From positions 1,464,001-1,528,000 of the forward strand of contig NZ_CP150239.1 in NCBI RefSeq assembly GCF_037975215.1: a DNA stretch of 64,000 bases, read 5' to 3'. The DNA is from Solibacillus sp. FSL R5-0449. GTDB lineage: Bacteria; Bacillota; Bacilli; Bacillales_A; Planococcaceae. Both the position numbers and the translations under genes were made by a program. The first letter of the stretch is position 1. Every line of letters starts with the position of its first letter. Shown here one piece after another: positions 3,486 through 16,662 of this stretch. Under the pieces are notes generated by a model. The model worked only from the letters and a program-made list of their open reading frames with translations. It had not been told where the DNA came from and searched no databases.

Positions 3486-5711
3486 GTGGTAACTTTTAAA
3501 AAGGCGGGTGCCATGCTAACTGCAACAGCGCTATCTGTTGGGTTATTAGCACCGATTGCTAGTGCTTCAACATTAGGGAATGAACGAATGGAGACATTAC
3601 CGATTCAGGTCGCACAAGCAAATACTACAGTAACAAAAGCAGATTTAATAAAGCGTTTCCGAGAATTATTTCCAAATGAGTTCCTGCATGTATCGGAAAA
3701 AGACTTTCATAGCGGGGCTGGATACTCACATCATTCAGACACTACGGTGCGTTATGAACTTTATTTCTCAAAGAATATTAATGATCAATATGAACATGGG
3801 AGCTTTGTTTTCGTAGGGGATACGTTAGAGTTGGAGCAATTCTATTATCAACCTGTATACACAAAGGATGTATTATTCCCGGCAAAATATTCAAAAGAAG
3901 AAGTGAAAAAATCAGCGGATAAATTTATGGAAAAGTTCAGTAAAGGCGAAGGGTATGAGCTTGTGCCGAACCCATACGATTATTACTCTCCATCTATATT
4001 AACGCAGCCTGTTGAATACTCATTTAATTATGAGAAGAAAAATTCAGGAATTCCAATTTCAGATCAAACTATCAATATTCGTGTACTAGGAGATGGAACA
4101 GTATCATCTTTTTATAGAACAACCTCTTCAAAAAATAATTTCACATATGATGACCCATCAAAAAAACAAGATGAATCATCCGTTGCTAACCGCGTTCAAG
4201 ATGCTTTAAAAGCACAATTGTCTTATACAATTATACCGGATTATTCAACAGGAAATCATAAAGTGAAGTTAGTTTATGAACCGAATAGCCAGGTTATTTC
4301 AGGTATCCATGCGCTAACAGGGGAATGGTTCACTATGGACGGACTCTCATCAACAATATCTGCTAAACCAATTACACCAATTGTATCAGCGCCATTAGCG
4401 TCAAAACAGCCGAACATGACAGCAGCTCAGGCACGAGCATTGGCTGAAAAATTGCTTGCAACAGATATAAAAGGTGTTCAACTGGAGATTGGAGCGGTTG
4501 ATGAAACAACTTCGGAGTCGGGTAAAGAAGTATTCAACATTCAATATATGTATAACTATCGTAATGGTGGAACAGGGACTGTACTAACAATTGATAAAGC
4601 AACAGGGGAATTCATTAATTACAGTGATATAAAAAGTAGTCTCGAAGTAGATAATGATGACAGCAAAGATGAAGTGAAATTAACACAAAAACAGGCATTG
4701 GATAAAGCGATCGCTCTTGTAAAAGAATGGATCCCTTCATCTGCTCACAAGTATGCATTGCCGGTAAATGAAGGCTACCATGAGACCTACAATAATAGTT
4801 ATAACTTTACATTCCCGCGCATCGAGAATGGCTTAACGGTAATGGGGGATAGTGTCTCAGTAAGTGTCGATGCCAAAACAGGTGATTTAGTCAACTTATA
4901 CATGAGCGACTATGGTGATTTGGAGTACCCGGCAGTAACGGATATTTTAGCTGAACAGGAAGCAACAAAAATGTTGAAGGATGAGTTGAAACTGAAACTG
5001 CAATATGTGAATCATCCAAAAGTAGGGAATGAGCAGCATTACAGTTTAGCATACCAACCAGTCTTCAAAGAACGGTCTGCTGGCATTGATGCCAAAACAG
5101 GTGAATGGTTAGATGCATCTGGAATGGCCAATGCGGACAAGCCGAAAATCGAGCATCCAAAAGCTGCCGAAGAATTAAATTATTTAATTCATGCAGGTAT
5201 TTTAGAAGTTAACGAAAAGTTTAACCCGGATGCCGCTATTACAAAAGAGGAAGCATTAAAAGTATTACTGAAATCCGTAACATACATGTATTACAGCTCT
5301 AGATACAATGATTTTGAAATGGCGGACGAATCATTTACTGATATAACGCCAGACGATCCTTCATATGCATTTGTCTCTCGTGCATTAAAGATGGGAATGC
5401 TCGATGCATCTACTAAAACCTTTAATCCTCAGACAGCTCTTACTAATCAGGAGCTGGCAAAATGGGTAATTGGAACACTGAAACTAAATAAACCTGCACA
5501 ACTGAGTGATATATATGAATTGAAATACAGTGATGCCGCACTAGTAGATAAGGAATTACGTGGTCACGTGGCATTAGCGTATGCAATGGGATTACTTGAA
5601 GCTGAAAATAATCAGTTGAAGCCAACTAGTGAAGTTACGTATGCACAATTAGCTCAAGTGACAATTCGTTTAGCACATAAAATGAACGAATATCAGATTA
5701 ATAACTATTAA
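3486..5711 (+). CDS. Secreted YcdB/YcdC-domain protein with C-terminal SLH repeats
   Basis: The GTG start follows AGGGGGATG. The 741-residue product has a Sec signal peptide (about residues 1-28, ending IASAS). The central part carries repeated YcdB/PepSY-like units in which similar blocks recur, for example QALTGEWFTMDG, KATGEFINYSD, KTGDLVNLYMSDYG and KTGEWLDASG. Residues about 555-735 form three degenerate S-layer homology modules with the typical xFxPxxxITKEEALKxLLK pattern, which bind secondary cell-wall polymer. It is therefore a surface-anchored protein. YcdB-family proteins are of uncertain function, and PepSY-type domains are thought to modulate peptidases, but no catalytic residues are visible. 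Confidence 0.82.
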   Translation: MVTFKKAGAMLTATALSVGLLAPIASASTLGNERMETLPIQVAQANTTVTKADLIKRFRELFPNEFLHVSEKDFHSGAGYSHHSDTTVRYELYFSKNINDQYEHGSFVFVGDTLELEQFYYQPVYTKDVLFPAKYSKEEVKKSADKFMEKFSKGEGYELVPNPYDYYSPSILTQPVEYSFNYEKKNSGIPISDQTINIRVLGDGTVSSFYRTTSSKNNFTYDDPSKKQDESSVANRVQDALKAQLSYTIIPDYSTGNHKVKLVYEPNSQVISGIHALTGEWFTMDGLSSTISAKPITPIVSAPLASKQPNMTAAQARALAEKLLATDIKGVQLEIGAVDETTSESGKEVFNIQYMYNYRNGGTGTVLTIDKATGEFINYSDIKSSLEVDNDDSKDEVKLTQKQALDKAIALVKEWIPSSAHKYALPVNEGYHETYNNSYNFTFPRIENGLTVMGDSVSVSVDAKTGDLVNLYMSDYGDLEYPAVTDILAEQEATKMLKDELKLKLQYVNHPKVGNEQHYSLAYQPVFKERSAGIDAKTGEWLDASGMANADKPKIEHPKAAEELNYLIHAGILEVNEKFNPDAAITKEEALKVLLKSVTYMYYSSRYNDFEMADESFTDITPDDPSYAFVSRALKMGMLDASTKTFNPQTALTNQELAKWVIGTLKLNKPAQLSDIYELKYSDAALVDKELRGHVALAYAMGLLEAENNQLKPTSEVTYAQLAQVTIRLAHKMNEYQINNY

Positions 5712-5737
5712 AAGCAGGTTTAGTTTAAATGAAACAT

Positions 5738-5766
5738 CCCTTGCCATTTAAAACGGCAAGGGTTTT
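5738..5766 (+). terminator. Intrinsic terminator
   Basis: CCCTTGCC and GGCAAGGG pair around a nine-base loop and are followed by TTTT. Confidence 0.85.
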
Positions 5767-5831
5767 CATATGTAAATTACGGAGCTAAGAACGATTATTG
5801 CGTTGCGAAAATCAGAATGGTGGGATGATTA

Positions 5832-6341
5832 ATGGTTATTAATCGAAATGAAATTTACTTCCGAAAGTTGAAATTAGAAGATTTCAATGCTGTAGTTGAT
5901 TGGAGCAGGGATGAGCATTTTTGTGAAGCAAATGGTTGGCAAAAAAATAGAGATCATATGGAAGTGTTTAAATGGTGGGAACGTTGTGTAGCCAATCAAC
6001 AAAAAGATATGATTCGTCTGGGAATTGAATATAAAAATAGACTTATCGGTCATGCCGATTTAACCGAGATTAATGAAAATTGTGCTGAAATTGGTATTGC
6101 TATAGGTGACAGTACGCTCTGGAATATTGGCATTGGTACACGAATGATAGAGGAATTAATCAATTATGCAAATGAACAATTTGGAATTACCACATTTTAC
6201 GGAGAAACGCATGAAACAAATCATCGCTCCAGAAAATTGATGAAGAAAATTGGATTTAAAGAGGAAAGCCGTGTGGGAACAGATTTATACATAGGGAAAG
6301 AAGTTAAGTTAGTACAATATAAGTTGGTTTTGAAAGAATGA
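5832..6341 (+). CDS. GNAT-family N-acetyltransferase (RimJ/RimL-like)
   Basis: A 169-residue cytoplasmic protein with the GNAT fold: an N-terminal FRKLKLEDFNAVVDWSRDE strand-helix, the central EIGIAIGDSTLWNIGIGTRMIEEL region that corresponds to the acetyl-CoA pyrophosphate loop, and the C-terminal NHRSRKLMKKIGFKEE motif typical of the RimJ/RimL and Acetyltransf_3 subfamily. Start ATG at 5832 follows GGTGGGATGATTA. Likely an acetyl-CoA-dependent transferase acting on a protein N-terminus, an amine or an antibiotic-like small molecule; the acceptor is not predictable. It stands alone between terminators. Confidence 0.85.
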   Translation: MVINRNEIYFRKLKLEDFNAVVDWSRDEHFCEANGWQKNRDHMEVFKWWERCVANQQKDMIRLGIEYKNRLIGHADLTEINENCAEIGIAIGDSTLWNIGIGTRMIEELINYANEQFGITTFYGETHETNHRSRKLMKKIGFKEESRVGTDLYIGKEVKLVQYKLVLKE

Positions 6342-8777: not shown

Positions 8778-10226
8778 TCACAATTCAATTACTTTCTTAT
8801 CTTTTATTTCAATCGTTCTTGTTGCCACTTGCTTCACAAAATAGTCATCATGGGAAACAAAGAGCACAGTCCCGTCATAGGCCTTAATAAAGTTTGCCAA
8901 TGCCTCTTTTGTCGCCATATCAAGGAAGTTGGTCGGTTCATCAAGCAGGAGAATATTATATTCACCTAAAAACAGCTGACTTAAAAGCAATCGAATCCGT
9001 TCGCCACCGCTTAAAACGGTGATTCGCTTTTGCAGATCACTCTGTTCAAACTGCATTTGATGCAAAACAGTGCGGATAAATGCATCGTTGTATTCACTTC
9101 TTGTTTTAATAAAACGCCAGATCGTCTCATTCGGTAAGGTTTGATAAGCAAGCTGTGAAAAATGACCGATTTTTACTTTCGGTGAGCGTTCTATATTAGG
9201 ATGCTTTTCGATAATCGCGTTCAGCAATGTTGATTTTCCGCTGCCGTTTGGACCTTTTATCGCTAGTTTATCCTGTAGGCGAACATGAAGCTGACATTGA
9301 TCCAACAGTATATTGTTTCCGATTGCTAAAGTAAGGTCCTGTATCATAATCGGTACTTTATTATGAAGTTCCAGTGCTTTCGATTGTTTGAATTGAAGTG
9401 GTACTTCTTCTTTTACTTTCTCGACAACAGGCAGCTGTTCAATCCGTTTTTCCATTGTTTTAGCTGATCGGTAAACCGATTTTTGGCTCGTTCCCTTGGA
9501 TTTTGTTTCAAACATTCGGTTTGCTTTGGCCTTCGTTTCTTTTTTTGACATCCTTTTCGCTTCGGTAATCTTTTCGGCTTTTTTCATTTTTTCAGCAACA
9601 GCCTTTTCCAAGTGTGCCTTTTCGCGAACATATTTTTCATGGGCAGCAGCTTGCTCCTGTTTTTCCCGTTCTTTTTGCGCGGCATAATCCGAATAATTCC
9701 CGCTATAGACTGTCACATGCCCGTCACTCACTTCCCAGATTGTCGTAACGACGCTATCCAGCAAGTTACGGTCATGACTGACAATGACGACGGCTCCGTA
9801 ATAATAGCGGAGCTGCTCCTGCAAAAATTTGATGCCATCCTGATCTAAATGTGTTGTCGGTTCATCTAATAGCATTGCCTCGTAGAAATGGCTGAATGCC
9901 TGTGACAATTTCGACCGTGTTTGTTCGCCACCGCTATGGGGATTGACTGCTTTCAGTTTATGGAAAAGCGCAATGTCAATATTGTCATCTGTAACGGCAG
10001 GGGATGTTTGTTCAAAATAATAATAGTCGACATGTGCATTAACATTCCCTTGCTGTGGAATGAGTTGACCGGTTAATAATTTTAATAGAGTACTTTTACC
10101 GGCACCGTTATTACCGACAATCCCAATGCGGTCGAATTGATAAATGGCCAGCTGCGGGATTGTCAGTACATCCTTATCTAAAAATTGTACAAGTATATTT
10201 TTCAGTTCAAAGCTTAAGTTTTCCAT
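8778..10226 (-). CDS. ABC-F family ATPase (Msr/Vga-type ribosomal protection candidate)
   Basis: The 482-residue protein has two nucleotide-binding domains and no membrane segments. Domain 1 carries GNNGAGKST, a signature at SGGEQTRSKL and LLDEPTTHLD. Domain 2 carries GPNGSGKST, LSGGERIRLLL and LLDEPTNFLD. The charged linker between them (about residues 190-280, rich in K and E) is the P-site tRNA-interaction motif of ABC-F proteins. Antibiotic-resistance ABC-Fs dislodge macrolides, lincosamides, streptogramins or pleuromutilins from the ribosome; housekeeping members also exist. The upstream leader, with two leader peptides and a terminator, matches the way resistance ABC-Fs are induced. ATG start follows GGAGG with a normal spacer. 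Drug spectrum is not predictable. Confidence 0.9.
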   Translation of the reverse strand: MENLSFELKNILVQFLDKDVLTIPQLAIYQFDRIGIVGNNGAGKSTLLKLLTGQLIPQQGNVNAHVDYYYFEQTSPAVTDDNIDIALFHKLKAVNPHSGGEQTRSKLSQAFSHFYEAMLLDEPTTHLDQDGIKFLQEQLRYYYGAVVIVSHDRNLLDSVVTTIWEVSDGHVTVYSGNYSDYAAQKEREKQEQAAAHEKYVREKAHLEKAVAEKMKKAEKITEAKRMSKKETKAKANRMFETKSKGTSQKSVYRSAKTMEKRIEQLPVVEKVKEEVPLQFKQSKALELHNKVPIMIQDLTLAIGNNILLDQCQLHVRLQDKLAIKGPNGSGKSTLLNAIIEKHPNIERSPKVKIGHFSQLAYQTLPNETIWRFIKTRSEYNDAFIRTVLHQMQFEQSDLQKRITVLSGGERIRLLLSQLFLGEYNILLLDEPTNFLDMATKEALANFIKAYDGTVLFVSHDDYFVKQVATRTIEIKDKKVIEL

Positions 10227-11798: not shown

Positions 11799-12662
11799 TT
11801 ATTTAACGATTAAATTATTTTTAATTTCCTTCTCCAGCATTTTAACTAGTTCTGCCTGTTCTAAATGCTGAAGTAGTGTTAATCCTTTTTCGATAAAACC
11901 TTCATCCGTTCCATTCAAATTATTCAGGCACACGCCTTTTCTTACATAACAGATCGACAAGTTAATAAAAAGCTGCTCCGATTTACATTTCCCGATGGCA
12001 TCATTCAAAAGGTGTAGCGCGGTTTCAAAGTCTTTTCCTTTTATATTGATAAGCGACAGATTGATGAGAAAGTTTATTTTTAACTTATTAATATTTTGAA
12101 ATCCGTTGTACTTGTCGATATGGCGAAAAGCAAATTCTTTAATTTCGGTTGCAGTAGAAATCGGAAATACAAATAAAATGGCATTCAGTATATAAATATC
12201 AGCTAAGTACAGTGTATTTCGCTGAGAGAGATCATCCCAAATGGGTGATAATGTTTTAGAAGCCAGTACAAAATCACTGGATCTTGCCAAAACGAGCATG
12301 CCTTCCATAACCGTTTGAATATTCATGATTAAATTGTCATTCGGATTTTGCTGTAAATAGGCAGCGCATTCTTCAATCATTTGAAGCAGAGCGTTTTCGG
12401 AATTATAGGTTTGATTGTAGAACTTCTTCATAATTCTTTGGCGGTCATGCATTTCATAATTGTTGCTTATGTATTCAAATTCTTCATAGGACATTTCAAG
12501 CCGTCCCAAAAATTCCTTCAAAATCGAAAATTTAATTTCTCTGTTTTCCCCTTTTTCAAATTTTGAGTAATTGCCCTGTGAGCATATTTTTTCGCTGACA
12601 TATTGTTGGGAATAGCCTTTACCTACCCTGATTTCTTTTATGACATGCCCGTAATTATTCAT
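11799..12662 (-). CDS. Rgg/GadR/MutR-type transcriptional regulator (RRNPP superfamily)
   Basis: The 287-residue protein has an N-terminal helix-turn-helix (about residues 5-62: GHVIKEIRVGKGYSQQYVSE then CSQGNYSKFEKGENREI). The remaining 220 residues are all-helical with repeat-like spacing, as in the C-terminal peptide-binding domain of Rgg proteins. Total length matches Rgg (280-300). Rgg regulators bind imported short peptides in the cytoplasm and control neighbouring, usually divergent, genes. Here a 19-codon hydrophobic peptide gene, a secreted-protein gene and an ABC transporter lie divergently, the typical Rgg layout. An inverted repeat overlaps its own predicted transcription start. 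PlcR-like or other TPR regulators are the alternative class. Confidence 0.82.
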   Translation of the reverse strand: MNNYGHVIKEIRVGKGYSQQYVSEKICSQGNYSKFEKGENREIKFSILKEFLGRLEMSYEEFEYISNNYEMHDRQRIMKKFYNQTYNSENALLQMIEECAAYLQQNPNDNLIMNIQTVMEGMLVLARSSDFVLASKTLSPIWDDLSQRNTLYLADIYILNAILFVFPISTATEIKEFAFRHIDKYNGFQNINKLKINFLINLSLINIKGKDFETALHLLNDAIGKCKSEQLFINLSICYVRKGVCLNNLNGTDEGFIEKGLTLLQHLEQAELVKMLEKEIKNNLIVK

Positions 12663-12669
12663 TTCATCA

Positions 12670-12688
12670 CCTAAATTATTCTTTTAGG
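12670..12688. promoter_or_regulatory. Inverted repeat, candidate Rgg-type operator
   Basis: CCTAAA and TTTAGG are separated by seven bases in the 83-bp gap between the regulator and the peptide gene. On the minus strand a TATAAT -10 element lies at 12692-12697, so the repeat covers the predicted start of the regulator transcript. This fits autoregulation. Binding is inferred only. Confidence 0.5.
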
Positions 12689-12691
12689 CAT

Positions 12692-12697
12692 ATTATA
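12692..12697 (-). promoter_or_regulatory. -10 element of the Rgg-type regulator gene
   Basis: A consensus TATAAT reads on the minus strand 30 bases upstream of the regulator start codon. A poor -35 (TTTACA or TTACAA) lies 18-19 bases further upstream. Confidence 0.5.
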
Positions 12698-12745
12698 CAC
12701 TTTTCGTCGGATAGTTTGTAAAATTAATACAAAGGAGGGGGAGAA

Positions 12746-12805
12746 ATGGTAGATTTATTACTCACAACATTGGAACTGTGGATTATTGGAACTGGTGGAG
12801 GATAA
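12746..12805 (+). CDS. Short hydrophobic peptide MVDLLLTTLELWIIGTGGG, candidate pheromone
   Basis: A 19-codon ORF starts at ATG 12746, eight or so bases after an excellent AAAGGAGGGGG ribosome site, divergent from the Rgg-type regulator. Its C-terminus ELWIIGTGG resembles mature streptococcal SHP pheromones such as DILIIVGG and DIIIIVGG: an acidic residue, four hydrophobics centred on Ile-Ile, and terminal Gly-Gly. It lacks the Lys-rich N-terminus of classic SHP precursors and has no basic residue, so it may be exported by an SHP-like route or act as a leaderless peptide, as known for the RopB peptide. The role is inferred from context and motif. Confidence 0.7.
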   Translation: MVDLLLTTLELWIIGTGGG

Positions 12806-12886
12806 GTGAAGGATGTAGAAGATTCATCTATTGTAATCAGGTTTTGGAATAGGAACAGAGGAGGAATCAATGATGAAAAAATTTAA
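12806..12886 (+). CDS. Possible 26-residue ORF directly following the peptide gene
   Basis: A GTG follows the stop codon of the peptide gene without a gap and in the same frame, and the GGTGGAGG that encodes the peptide's Gly-Gly-Gly tail would serve as its ribosome site. It encodes MKDVEDSSIVIRFWNRNRGG then INDEKI and overlaps the start of the next gene by 17 bases. Its product resembles nothing I know. It could be a coupling ORF or chance. Confidence 0.25.
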   Translation: MKDVEDSSIVIRFWNRNRGGINDEKI

Positions 12887-13190
12887 ATTGGTAAGTTTAA
12901 GTTTAGTAGCAGCAATTTCTTTAAGTGTATCCGTGAATATTTCAAGTATCCAAGCAGCTGAAAGTTTGAAGCCTGAAGTTTCTGTAGCGTCCGATACACT
13001 TTGGTATTCAAAAGAAGTGCCATATACAACGACACAATCGATGTGGGTAACGGTTACTCAAAACGGTAAAACGTATTCTGGTTATTTGTATAATCGTGGC
13101 TACGCTGTAGGGAAGCCGGGCTATTCCTTCTTCTCAGGCACGCTGAAAACAGGACCATATGCACCGCTTAGTAACGCAGACGAGGAGTAA
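12870..13190 (+). CDS. Small secreted protein of the Rgg-linked locus, unknown function
   Basis: The product has 106 residues (105 if ATG 12873 is used, which is better spaced from GAGGAGG). Residues 1-29 are a Sec signal peptide ending SSIQA-A. The mature 77 residues are rich in Tyr, Ser, Thr and Gly (VPYTTTQSMWVTVTQNG, then YSGYLYNRGYAVGKPG), probably beta-rich, with no cysteine, ending acidic (NADEE). No family recognised. Lying between an Rgg/peptide pair and an ABC transporter, it could be a bacteriocin-like effector, an immunity factor or a secreted signal. The lactococcin-972 group has similar size and an ABC partner but I see no convincing shared motif. Confidence 0.8.
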   Translation: MMKKFKLVSLSLVAAISLSVSVNISSIQAAESLKPEVSVASDTLWYSKEVPYTTTQSMWVTVTQNGKTYSGYLYNRGYAVGKPGYSFFSGTLKTGPYAPLSNADEE

Positions 13191-13215
13191 TTGCTAGTCT
13201 GAATCTGATCATTTC

Positions 13216-13275
13216 AAATCCTCTTTGAAAAGGACAAGCAACCGCTTTATGGCAGTTCTGCTCAAAGAGGAATTT
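13216..13275 (+). promoter_or_regulatory. Intercistronic inverted repeat between secreted-protein and permease genes
   Basis: TCCTCTTTGA and TCAAAGAGGA form a perfect ten-base-pair stem around a 33-base loop. No T-run follows, so it is more likely an RNA stability or processing element separating the abundant secreted-protein message from the transporter genes than a terminator. Confidence 0.5.
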
Positions 13276-13309
13276 ATATTTTCAGCAAACTAAAGGGGAA
13301 GGAGGGAGA

Positions 13310-15796
13310 ATGATGAATGAAGTAATTCGTTTTCTCATGAAGGGCTTGCTGAAAAGCAAATATATTTTTATTTTACCTGTGGCAATTATTGTACTTGTCG
13401 GATCGATGCTCGTAATGAATAGTATACAATCTGGTGCTACCAAGCAGGAACTGCAGGAGACATTCAACAACCGGAAAGATACCGTACATTTATTGATTAC
13501 AAGTACATTAACGAAAGAACGTGTAATAGGTCTTACTCCTGAAGAACAGCAATCATTGGAAAGTCTTCTATTGAAAGAGCAATATATAAACGATATTTTA
13601 AAGAAATTAGACGAGAACGATCTACAGATTGCTGAGCAGCAGCTGGCCTTTTTAAACGAATATGAAAATTACATAGCATTTAAAGCAATCCCTTATCTTG
13701 GAGAACAATCAGTCACAGTAGAAAAGGAGAAAGCTGAAGCGCTCATTGATCATCAGTTGGCCTATACGGAACAAAATACGCCATATAAAACGGCCTTATT
13801 TACAAAACAATTATTCCAAATTCTATTCAGCCCCGTTACGGCCTTTCTTCTTTTATTAGTTTTTAGCTATAAATATATGTTCGACCGAGAAAATCGTACT
13901 TTCGATTTCTTTAAAATGAATTCATTGTCCAGTACGGCCATTTATTTTGGCTATTTGATGCCATTATTACTTGTCGAGTTGTGTTACATCGTCATCGGAT
14001 ACGTTTTGTCTTTCCTGCCGCCATTATTATCAGGGAATCTCAACACAATTTACTATCCCGTTGAAGTGACGGTCAATTCTGAAGTTGTATTAATTCCAAT
14101 ATGGAAATGGCTAGTATTCATCCCGATAGGTTGGGGAATATTCTGTGCGATATTATTACTGCTGTTTACTTGCCTGATTAAACAGCAAGTGAAATTAGGT
14201 TTGTTGTTCTCGTTGATTAGTTTGCCGGTGTTAATCAGCTATATCGTTTCTTTGAAGACTGGCTTTCTTATGTATAACCCGATTCACCTGATTGTTTCGT
14301 ATGAACAGCTATTACTGAATTTGAATCGTTTAGTCTATTATTTAATCATTATGTTCTTGCTGGTTTTGGTGTGTACCGGTCTTACTTATGCTGTTATTAA
14401 TATGAAGAGTGTCAGTTTGGGAGTTCCAGAATATACAGCATCGAAAAAACAGTATCGTCCAAATAGGAAATTCAAATTACTACAGTTTGAGCATATGAAA
14501 AAGAAACGGAAAGGGCATATTCTTTTAACCGTTCTTCTGCTATTCGGAATAATTGGCGGTACGGTCATTGTAGTGAATGAGCAGTATCGAACATTTCCTG
14601 ACAAAGCACTGAAAATAATCGAGAGCTCGCAAAATACGAATATCCAAGATCAAACACACTGGAAGCTGGTCGCGGATGAATTTGAAATGGAGCAGGAGTT
14701 ACAGCAACGGATGGCTGAGGAGACGGGTGAAGAGCTGGAAATACTTGATCAAAATCCTTATCAGGCAATGATTAAACAATTAGAAATGCGGTTTGAAGCG
14801 CTTGAACATTTAAAGGCGGATATTCATTCTCCGACATTTGCCGAGACATTTCGGGATGTGATGAACTCATTTGAACCGGGATCTTATAAAGAAAGCGATA
14901 ATACGCTTTGGACTATGACCGACATGGCATCGGAAGAGCAGGAAATAGTTCTGGATGAAAAAAGGATAACCCCGTGGCCGCTTGGACATAAATGGGTATC
15001 GAAATTTGATGACCTGAGTCAGGCTTTGGACCAAGAACATTATGAACGTTTAAAACTGTTCCAGGAACAAAATACAAAATACGGAGACAGCAGTTCGTTT
15101 GCAATGTATCGGTTTTTGGATTGGAACTTGATGTTGGTCGTCCTGTTTTTGTTTGTATTCATATTATGGACTACGATGGCCGATGAATATAGACCGACCT
15201 TGTCGATGAACTTTTTAGCAACAAAACCGATTCGATTTTCTTCTATCTATATAATGAAGTGGATTTACAATTTAACGGTTGCCTGTAGTTTATTGCTCAT
15301 TACGGGAACGATTGTTTTTCTGATTGCTACGCTAATAGGTGGTGCAGGTGACTGGGATTATCCGATATTGATTTATGCAACAGAACGACTGGAGGATTCC
15401 TTTATCTTTTCAACTGCGAACAATGCCTATTTCTATTTTGAAAGTTTGTCATCGTTGCTTTTCAAAAGTGGCGTGCTTGTATTTTTACAACTCTTCTTCT
15501 TAAATAGTTTGTTCAGCTTTATCGGGAAATTGATGAAAAATCATTATGCCGCGATTATTGTTACATCCATACTTGTCATTACCGGGTACTTTGCAGGGAA
15601 CCATTACATTGAACTAACAAGTAGCATGTATAATCCGTTTGTATATTTTGATACATGGAATATTGTAGATGGCTGGAAATCGATTGAGGCAAATAACGCT
15701 AAAGTGAACTTTCTGACGGGTACGGGCATTTTACTAATCGGTGGAATCCTATTACTCGGGCTGGGGCTTTTATTTAAAAGGAAGGTGAATTCATAA
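13310..15796 (+). CDS. ABC-2 type transporter permease, double-length
   Basis: The 828-residue protein starts after GGGGAAGGAGGGAGA. It contains two similar halves: each begins with a membrane segment (about 15-35 and 400-420), then a large extracellular region (about 40-160 and 425-600) and a cluster of four to six membrane segments (about 165-365 and 605-825). This is a fused ABC-2 permease pair, so one polypeptide plus two copies of the following ATPase could form a full exporter. Its stop codon overlaps the ATPase start (TAATG). Operon context suggests it exports or gives immunity to the small secreted product; substrate unknown. Confidence 0.85.
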   Translation: MMNEVIRFLMKGLLKSKYIFILPVAIIVLVGSMLVMNSIQSGATKQELQETFNNRKDTVHLLITSTLTKERVIGLTPEEQQSLESLLLKEQYINDILKKLDENDLQIAEQQLAFLNEYENYIAFKAIPYLGEQSVTVEKEKAEALIDHQLAYTEQNTPYKTALFTKQLFQILFSPVTAFLLLLVFSYKYMFDRENRTFDFFKMNSLSSTAIYFGYLMPLLLVELCYIVIGYVLSFLPPLLSGNLNTIYYPVEVTVNSEVVLIPIWKWLVFIPIGWGIFCAILLLLFTCLIKQQVKLGLLFSLISLPVLISYIVSLKTGFLMYNPIHLIVSYEQLLLNLNRLVYYLIIMFLLVLVCTGLTYAVINMKSVSLGVPEYTASKKQYRPNRKFKLLQFEHMKKKRKGHILLTVLLLFGIIGGTVIVVNEQYRTFPDKALKIIESSQNTNIQDQTHWKLVADEFEMEQELQQRMAEETGEELEILDQNPYQAMIKQLEMRFEALEHLKADIHSPTFAETFRDVMNSFEPGSYKESDNTLWTMTDMASEEQEIVLDEKRITPWPLGHKWVSKFDDLSQALDQEHYERLKLFQEQNTKYGDSSSFAMYRFLDWNLMLVVLFLFVFILWTTMADEYRPTLSMNFLATKPIRFSSIYIMKWIYNLTVACSLLLITGTIVFLIATLIGGAGDWDYPILIYATERLEDSFIFSTANNAYFYFESLSSLLFKSGVLVFLQLFFLNSLFSFIGKLMKNHYAAIIVTSILVITGYFAGNHYIELTSSMYNPFVYFDTWNIVDGWKSIEANNAKVNFLTGTGILLIGGILLLGLGLLFKRKVNS

Positions 15797-16662
15797 TGGT
15801 ATTGCAGGTGTACGGTCTTGAAATGGAATATAAAAACAGAAGGGTACTGGATAATATTACGTTTTCAATCGGTACTGGTGAAATAATTGGAATCGTTGGA
15901 CCGAATGGGGCAGGGAAATCTTCGTTAATGCGCGCGGTATTAGGATTGGAAAAGATTAATAAAGGCACTGTTCACATAAACAATATTGCCAACAATAAGC
16001 CTGAGTTTTTTAAACATATTTCCTTTTTGCCAAGTGACAATTACTTGTACATGCAGTTAACCGGCTATGATCATCTGTCATTTGTGGCGAATATTTACCA
16101 TATTCCGCAACAAGAAATAGATGACGTCATTGAGTTGATCGGCATCCGCTCCTACGTGCATCAGCCCGTCAAATCTTATTCGTACGGGATGCGCCAGCAT
16201 TTGCTCATTGCGTTAAGTATATTGACGAAGCCGCTCATTATTTTAATGGATGAACCATTTAATGGACTGGACCCAACGAGCATTATTGAATTAAAACAAT
16301 TGATTCAAGTACTGCATGCAAAAGGAATGAGCATCTTCATCTCAACGCATAACTTGGATTTACTCGAAGATTTGACGGATACGTTCTGGTTTATTAAAGA
16401 AGGAAAGCTTTATAAAGATTCGTTGCAGTCGAGTAGGGAAGTTCAATACGAAATTAAATATTCGTATGAGAGTGATCTTTCTCAAATAATGAAAAAGGGC
16501 CAACTTCCTTTCCAGATGAAAGAGAATGTACTAATTACAGATGCGGCATTTGCGATTGAAACCTATCTTCAATGGCTATTGAAAAATGGTGTGCAAATCC
16601 ATGCGGTGAATCCGATTAACCGAAACTTGGAAGAACTGTACCGGGATTTTTATGGACTATAA
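15796..16662 (+). CDS. ABC transporter ATP-binding protein of the Rgg-linked locus
   Basis: The 288-residue ATPase overlaps the permease stop by one base (TAATG), implying translational coupling. Motifs: Walker A GPNGAGKSS near residue 36, Q-loop region near 80, signature SYGMRQ near 130, where the family LSGGQ is degenerate, and Walker B LIILMDEPFNGLDP near 150, with the switch His in STHNL. It has the layout of the CcmA/NatA-type ABC-2 exporter ATPases. The last 80 residues are a variable accessory domain. It energises the double-length permease. A strong terminator follows. Confidence 0.9.
   Translation: MVLQVYGLEMEYKNRRVLDNITFSIGTGEIIGIVGPNGAGKSSLMRAVLGLEKINKGTVHINNIANNKPEFFKHISFLPSDNYLYMQLTGYDHLSFVANIYHIPQQEIDDVIELIGIRSYVHQPVKSYSYGMRQHLLIALSILTKPLIILMDEPFNGLDPTSIIELKQLIQVLHAKGMSIFISTHNLDLLEDLTDTFWFIKEGKLYKDSLQSSREVQYEIKYSYESDLSQIMKKGQLPFQMKENVLITDAAFAIETYLQWLLKNGVQIHAVNPINRNLEELYRDFYGL

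Follow-up and report, generated by a model that had tools for sequence, protein, structure and literature searches.

A short peptide gene divergent from an Rgg-like receptor in Solibacillus: an apparently new branch of the quorum switches with peptide signals known mainly from streptococci

Several described pairs of receptor and peptide resemble the locus presented here. Streptococcal Rgg2 and Rgg3 are paired with SHP2 and SHP3. ComR, the receptor of ComS/XIP in streptococci, regulates competence, and ComS peptides end in a Trp-rich core; PapR, the partner of PlcR in the Bacillus cereus group, is a longer Sec-type propeptide. The Rgg/ComR/PrgX receptors are described in two papers as essentially restricted to Lactobacillales (PMC9765709, PMC12700828). 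RopB-clan receptors, delimited by BLASTP at 25% identity and 70% coverage, are placed in six families that include Bacillaceae and Staphylococcaceae by a third source, mostly with leaderless peptides (LCPs) of 8-10 residues; a long L. sphaericus LCP is given there as an exception in length, and leaderless RopB peptides are stated to exit and re-enter cells without known machinery (PMC10518010). A strict set of peptides defined elsewhere requires either a match to an SHP model or a predicted Sec signal (PMC10075063). In the open-licence literature, supplements excluded, we found no paper describing the present family in Solibacillus, Sporosarcina or Planococcaceae.

The window analysed is a stretch of 64,000 nt from Solibacillus sp. 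FSL R5-0449 (Planococcaceae; contig NZ_CP150239.1), whose genome is a single contig of 3.58 Mb. A preliminary description had read the genes at 11799-16662 as an Rgg-like regulator divergent from a hydrophobic peptide ORF, with genes for a secreted protein and an ABC transporter behind the latter. This set of ORFs and their positions were borne out, including the secreted protein as the next gene downstream of the peptide and the overlap of the ATPase start with the permease stop, which have one base in common (TAATG). The features are:

11799..12662, minus strand: Rgg-like receptor/regulator of 287 aa, with an N-terminal HTH and C-terminal TPR-like helices (profiles and fold model)
12677..12692, plus strand: operator candidate TATTCTTTTAGGCATA, one mismatch from TATTC-N6-GAATA
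12692..12697, minus strand: TATAAT, a candidate -10 for the regulator gene, in contact with the operator candidate (by eye)
12719..12724, plus strand: TAAAAT, a candidate -10 for the peptide promoter, with no -35 that can be made out (by eye)
12746..12805, plus strand: peptide gene of 19 codons, MVDLLLTTLELWIIGTGGG, with AGGAGG at 12733-12738
12870..13190, plus strand: secreted protein of 106 aa, with a Sec-type N-terminus by eye
13310..15796, plus strand: membrane protein of 828 aa, putative ABC permease (ORF)
15796..16662, plus strand: ABC transporter ATPase of 288 aa, with a clear ABC_tran domain

Judged by eye, the operator candidate lies just upstream of the expected -35 position of the peptide promoter; a consensus promoter scan listed neither 12692-12697 nor 12719-12724 as a promoter. 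A direct repeat of 12 nt, with copies at 12653 and 12674, lies in part within the regulator's coding start. The gap from the peptide stop to the secreted gene is 64 nt, and a scan of this interval returned no plus-strand terminator. A hairpin between the secreted gene and the permease was discarded as a candidate (z -0.46, with equal stability in 54 of 200 shuffles).

We call the regulator 'Rgg-like' rather than a filed Rgg member because its matches to the curated models of the Rgg C-terminal domain fall under their cut-offs (TIGR01716, 24.8 bits against 36.9; PF21259, 20.6 bits against 27), while its HTH_3 domain passes (26.7 bits against 23). A profile built from 24 relatives was searched against solved structures, where the best sequence-profile match among the solved chains was Lmo0325 of Listeria monocytogenes (3.1e-20); the profile also matched S. 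salivarius NrpR (1.4e-14), Rgg3 (1.6e-13), Rgg2 (8.6e-13), Rgg144 (1.7e-8), PlcR (2.2e-8), PrgX (about 7e-5) and RopB (7.3e-5). The single-chain fold model (pLDDT 91.3) has the RRNPP/Rgg-type layout, an HTH followed by a C-terminal domain of TPR-like helical repeats, and aligns with PlcR, Lmo0325, Rgg144 and Rgg3 over 266-280 residues at Z 18.4-19.5. As modelled, the regulator is a receptor of the RRNPP/Rgg-type (Rgg/PlcR-type) fold. The earlier assignment as an Rgg-like regulator, and with it the expectation that the C-terminal domain should match Rgg/RRNPP profiles, therefore stands as to fold, HTH domain and the matches to Rgg3, Rgg2, PlcR and PrgX, and falls short at the curated C-terminal cut-offs.

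Among the individual receptors, PlcR, likewise a peptide receptor of Bacillales, gives the best structural alignment (3u3w, Z 19.5), tied with Lmo0325 (Z 19.3) and Rgg144, although its sequence-profile match is weaker than those of Rgg2 and Rgg3. The latter share the fold (Rgg3, 6w1f, Z 18.4; Rgg2, 5w4m, Z 17.6) but at only about 16-17% identity in the structure alignments, and they belong to other taxa and other cargo. ComR likewise shares the fold (5jub, Z 15.1). RopB resembles the receptor weakly, in structure (12% identity, Z 13.5) as in profile.

To follow the peptide gene we took as the family the 94 regulators scoring at least 200 bits, and as controls 380 other genes of the same loci. 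A W-type ORF was required to lie on the divergent strand, to start 75-155 nt upstream, to have 8-35 codons and a Shine-Dalgarno match, and to contain W[LIFMV]. Such an ORF occupies the divergent position at 54 of the 94 family regulators and at 5 of the 380 control genes, a contrast to be taken as evidence and not as a probability, since the W criterion was picked after inspecting the first results and the rows are related. A chance-looking ORF from Pilibacter (L111) is inside this count but was left out of the motif and operator counts, which thus use 53 rows. Substitutions in the peptides are mostly silent: pN/pS, for which unequal-length pairs (those with L042 and L078) were skipped, is 0.12 in the query regulator's clade, 0.28 in the clade of an in-genome paralogue and 0.15 in a Sporosarcina clade, and a fourth clade has zero substitutions among its comparable rows. 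Judged by this pattern, the 19-codon ORF at 12746-12805 is a selected gene, kept in a fixed place. The proposal of a hydrophobic peptide gene divergent from the regulator in a Planococcaceae host, conserved beside it in relatives, is in this respect upheld.

The 53 rows contain 44 distinct peptides with the motif [DE]xW[LIF]IGxG; position W-2 is D or E in 36 of them, W+2 is I in 35 and W+3 is G in 33. They are 14-23 residues long, with one outlier of 32. D or E occurs within the first five residues in 37 of the 44 and K or R within the first eight in 4, and the net charge is zero or below in every one; judged by these residue counts, the peptides have no leader sequence. The likeness to the SHPs thus lies in the divergent short gene and in the hydrophobic, glycine-rich C-terminus, where DIWIIVGG of L226 differs by a single residue from DIIIIVGG of L194, a locus with a streptococcus-type receptor. 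Unlike the streptococcal SHPs, which have a basic N-terminal leader, 40 of the 44 lack one, and the family has its conserved Trp. The SHP2/SHP3 model NF033797 matched none of the six family peptides whose length allowed a scan, MVDLLLTTLELWIIGTGGG with its 19 aa being too short; the same extraction beside streptococcus-type receptors yielded MKKISKLIPILVLIMDIIIIVGG (L194), which passes with 47.5 bits (cut-off 38), and a second control peptide (L197), which stays below with 8.7 bits. The strict set cited above (PMC10075063) would probably exclude the family peptides. Leaderlessness, a divergent or adjacent receptor and target genes that are secreted or antagonistic are features held in common with the LCPs of the RopB-SIP class, which at mostly 8-10 residues are shorter than the family peptides.

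A family member at E<=1e-30 is present in 57 of 261 Planococcaceae genomes, and the peptide is not in all of them; among the 94 family regulators, 40 are without a W-type ORF. On a quick tree of 132 rows (the named RopB, ComR, PrgX and PlcR are not among them) the W-type regulators do not form one clade. Their label needs 13 changes, which implies repeated losses, changes or missed peptides. The 26 rows from the TIGR01716 scan (L180-L205) lie on one side of a branch with support 98, apart from the family of the query regulator; the deeper branching order is uncertain because many branches are long. Some Planococcaceae (e.g. L206, G302) also have receptors above the curated Rgg C-terminal cut-off, as a group apart from the W-type family. 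Distances between peptides and between receptors are correlated (Mantel r 0.64, with 0 of 999 permutations as high), as would also arise from co-inheritance alone.

Upstream of the receptors we looked for TATTC-N4-6-GAATA with at most one mismatch, a word whose arms were chosen after earlier results had been inspected and so not blind. It occurs at 32 of the 53 peptide-bearing loci, at 12 of the 40 family loci without a W-type ORF and at 3 of the 380 controls. A generic palindrome search was weak and was set aside (on average 6.22 of 7, with 5.83 for shuffles; only 5-6 of 7 in the query regulator's clade). The local form, TATTCTTTTAGGCATA, occurs four times without mismatch in the host genome, where base composition or a third-order chain predicts 0.007 copies:

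12677-12692 of the window, plus strand: the copy at the regulator/peptide locus
genome position 1874204, 91 nt upstream of the start called for a 177-aa gene: exact copy; the gene has no Pfam family
311 nt before the gene of a 328-aa protein with a Sec-type N-terminus: exact copy, with an S8 subtilase next
ahead of an IS110-type transposase gene: exact copy, followed by genes for 121-aa proteins with Sec-type N-termini

The third of these heads a putative distal regulon of the 328-aa protein, the subtilase and an 80-aa protein (7680-10085 of L274). At the fourth (L282) the transposase gene (5027-6301, minus strand) separates the operator copy from a pair of genes for 121-aa proteins, which looks like an insertion of the element downstream of the promoter. 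One further copy, at genome position 1861792, has one mismatch. A longer operator pattern with up to two mismatches gave 8 sites in the genome and 5 for its control, so that only exact or near-exact copies stand out and weaker ones mean nothing.

Among 16 congeners, exact TATTCTTTTAGGCATA occurs in six, namely the host genome and five with a receptor 93-96% identical, each with the local copy; it is absent from G009, whose receptor is 70% identical, and a reversed control word occurs in none of the 16. The word before the 177-aa gene is present and identical in four genomes (G000, G005, G007 and G008), where the 60 nt on its 5' side are random in comparison, agreeing at 0.22-0.35. Of the exact copies, two are confined to the host genome. 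Neither G003 nor G012 has a distal copy; the 177-aa gene was not found in the 200 kb searched of G003, and in G012 it is matched over its last 44 codons only, without the operator word. Also in G012, a 62% relative of the 177-aa gene (4092-4619 of L047) lies a few kb from another receptor/peptide pair, again without the word.

Of the cassette behind the peptide, the ATPase is the one gene with a clear family. Its best NCBIfam match is a lantibiotic-protection ATPase model, at 156 bits far under the cut-off of 310. Neither the 106-aa protein nor the permease has a convincing Pfam, NCBIfam or PHROGs family. The 'double-length ABC-2 permease' of the preliminary description is accordingly kept as a description only: an 828-aa membrane protein is there, and a family model that matches it convincingly is not. 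The 106-aa protein has a predicted four-stranded beta region at residues 43-94; a known bacteriocin was considered and set aside, with no family match and no PDB match at E<=0.001, although absence from a list of structures excludes no family. A toxin with an immunity transporter would be a guess at the function of the secreted protein and the ABC proteins.

The cassette and the pair of regulator and peptide come apart in both directions. The query regulator's clade consists of six loci (the window locus and L034 to L038), and the secreted gene with the full transporter is found in three of them, the window locus, L034 and L038; L036 is without the secreted gene, L035 without most of the permease and L037 without any. 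Regulator and peptide are thus present without a transporter in G008 (L037), and also in G009 (L039, with a less similar peptide), and neither genome has a permease match anywhere. Conversely, we took from other genomes 12 stretches of 16-17 kb that surround the transporter or the secreted gene, 11 with the permease and one (G028) with the secreted gene alone, and the query regulator had no match in any of them. In L138 and L139 permease and ATPase adjoin the VTT-domain gene that is also their neighbour in the window. The secreted gene for its part is found in G007 (L035) beside a permease that is mostly gone and in G028 in a genome with no permease match at all, which keeps the pairing of toxin and immunity transporter a guess. 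In the former case (9071-9385 of L035) D replaces a nearly invariant G in a GPY motif of the secreted protein. In G294 the cassette (4328-10024 of L148) points away from another HTH reading frame, behind which comes a TPR frame; the two may be what is left of a regulator, broken or split, that belonged to a different class of peptide receptor. A dedicated exporter, as in the earlier reading of a complete peptide-signalling and export unit, is rejected on this gene content; going by gene order, the cassette is better read as exchangeable cargo, separable from the switch.

Cargo varies likewise across the family. At 38 of the 53 loci a gene of 80 codons or more, in the same orientation as the peptide, starts no more than 600 nt from it. 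These genes make up 22 clusters with no similarity detected between them, one of which (L036) is a deletion form of the window locus's cassette. The first co-oriented gene looks secreted at 16 of 39 loci, against 38 of 402 other genes, by a rule that is home-made and simple and on a set of 39 that includes related rows and L111; clusters with a row passing the rule number 12 of the 22 by hand count, and 15 by eye. Pfam puts a name to few of the cargo genes. The cargo of L046 is a secreted C39-like peptidase (Pfam), an arrangement that recalls RopB and SpeB, and papain-like C92 proteins are the cargo of L240 (above the Pfam cut-off) and L079 (just below).

The in-genome paralogue (L004), with a receptor 55% identical, starts at 8887 (genome 1454887), about 22 kb from the query regulator. 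It has its own peptide, MVEFIIIALELWIVGIGGG, its own operator variant and a different cargo, a sigma-70 region-4 gene and a YvrJ gene, which also speaks against a dedicated transporter. A third, distant paralogue (27%) lies in an 18-kb stretch around genome position 1595764 (L005), in a subclade in which no W-type peptide was found. In G032 three Rgg-like genes stand in tandem (8033-10849 of L050), and the one W-type peptide found is upstream of the outermost.

We think it probable that the locus is a self-activating switch built on an Rgg-like cytoplasmic peptide receptor, its peptide exported and re-imported, that drives the peptide gene, the cassette and distal promoters. The receptor would bind the operator in the space that separates its gene from that of the peptide. 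The whole peptide, or its C-terminal part around LELWIIGTGGG, would exit the cell, be brought back by an oligopeptide permease and bind in the TPR-like groove of the receptor. The receptor so loaded would activate, rather than repress, the peptide gene, the secreted-protein/ABC cassette downstream, reached by read-through from the peptide promoter, and the few distal promoters with the same 16-mer, and the locus would in this way signal. For export, processing and import respectively, EcsB (PptAB/Ecs-type exporter), a TIGR00054 (Eep/RasP-type) protease and seven OppA-type matches over the cut-off are present in the host genome, but their presence says little, as these are housekeeping genes.

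Export by the known route is not evident, since the peptides are without a basic leader, and one may ask whether the peptide is both made and read inside one cell, the locus then being a timer or memory switch instead of a means of cell-to-cell signalling. The scarcity of K and R near the N-terminus (4 of 44), the net charge of zero or below throughout and the lack of an exporter linked to the regulator/peptide pair would fit such same-cell feedback, which we nevertheless find unlikely, given that leaderless RopB peptides do leave and re-enter cells (PMC10518010). That the short ORF is a leader or attenuator, or a small membrane peptide, and that the receptor's ligand is something else, seems very improbable: the ORF is indeed short, hydrophobic and first in the presumed transcript, but what is conserved is an amino-acid motif at its C-terminus, beside a peptide-receptor fold, and receptor and peptide are constant while cargo and spacing vary freely (22 clusters at 38 loci).

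The exchange of cargo also bears on how far the switch controls the cassette. The two might be mere neighbours, the cassette controlling itself and the receptor acting on the peptide gene and distal targets; the cassette does occur without the query regulator in other genomes, and in G008 the pair occurs without the cassette. There the receptor, the peptide and the distal word are all still present although the local cassette is lost, and the distal word may explain why the pair was retained. Against a mere neighbourhood stand the gap of just 64 nt with no plus-strand terminator in the scan and the excess of secreted-looking first genes, and we give this reading a minority place, rather doubtful but to be reckoned with.

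Whether the family is a separate signal class of Planococcaceae and neighbours is, in our estimate, evenly balanced. The peptides of such a class would be acidic and leaderless, 14-23 residues long and built around a [DE]xW[LIF]IGxG core, and would combine an SHP-like C-terminal code with RopB-type leaderlessness. Each receptor clade would use its own version of a single palindromic operator and control sets of secreted proteins that can be exchanged, together with, in the paralogue, a sigma-factor/YvrJ operon. If so, Rgg-type signalling would extend outside Lactobacillales and would call for an export route beyond those known; how an acidic, leaderless peptide of such size travels is the foremost question. 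The locus thus has the look of a new branch among quorum switches that are mainly known in streptococci. If its peptides signal, the family would offer many sets of receptor, peptide and operator in environmental bacteria and a test case for the passage of leaderless peptides through membranes, and it would direct attention to secreted proteins, still uncharacterised, through which bacteria may act on one another.
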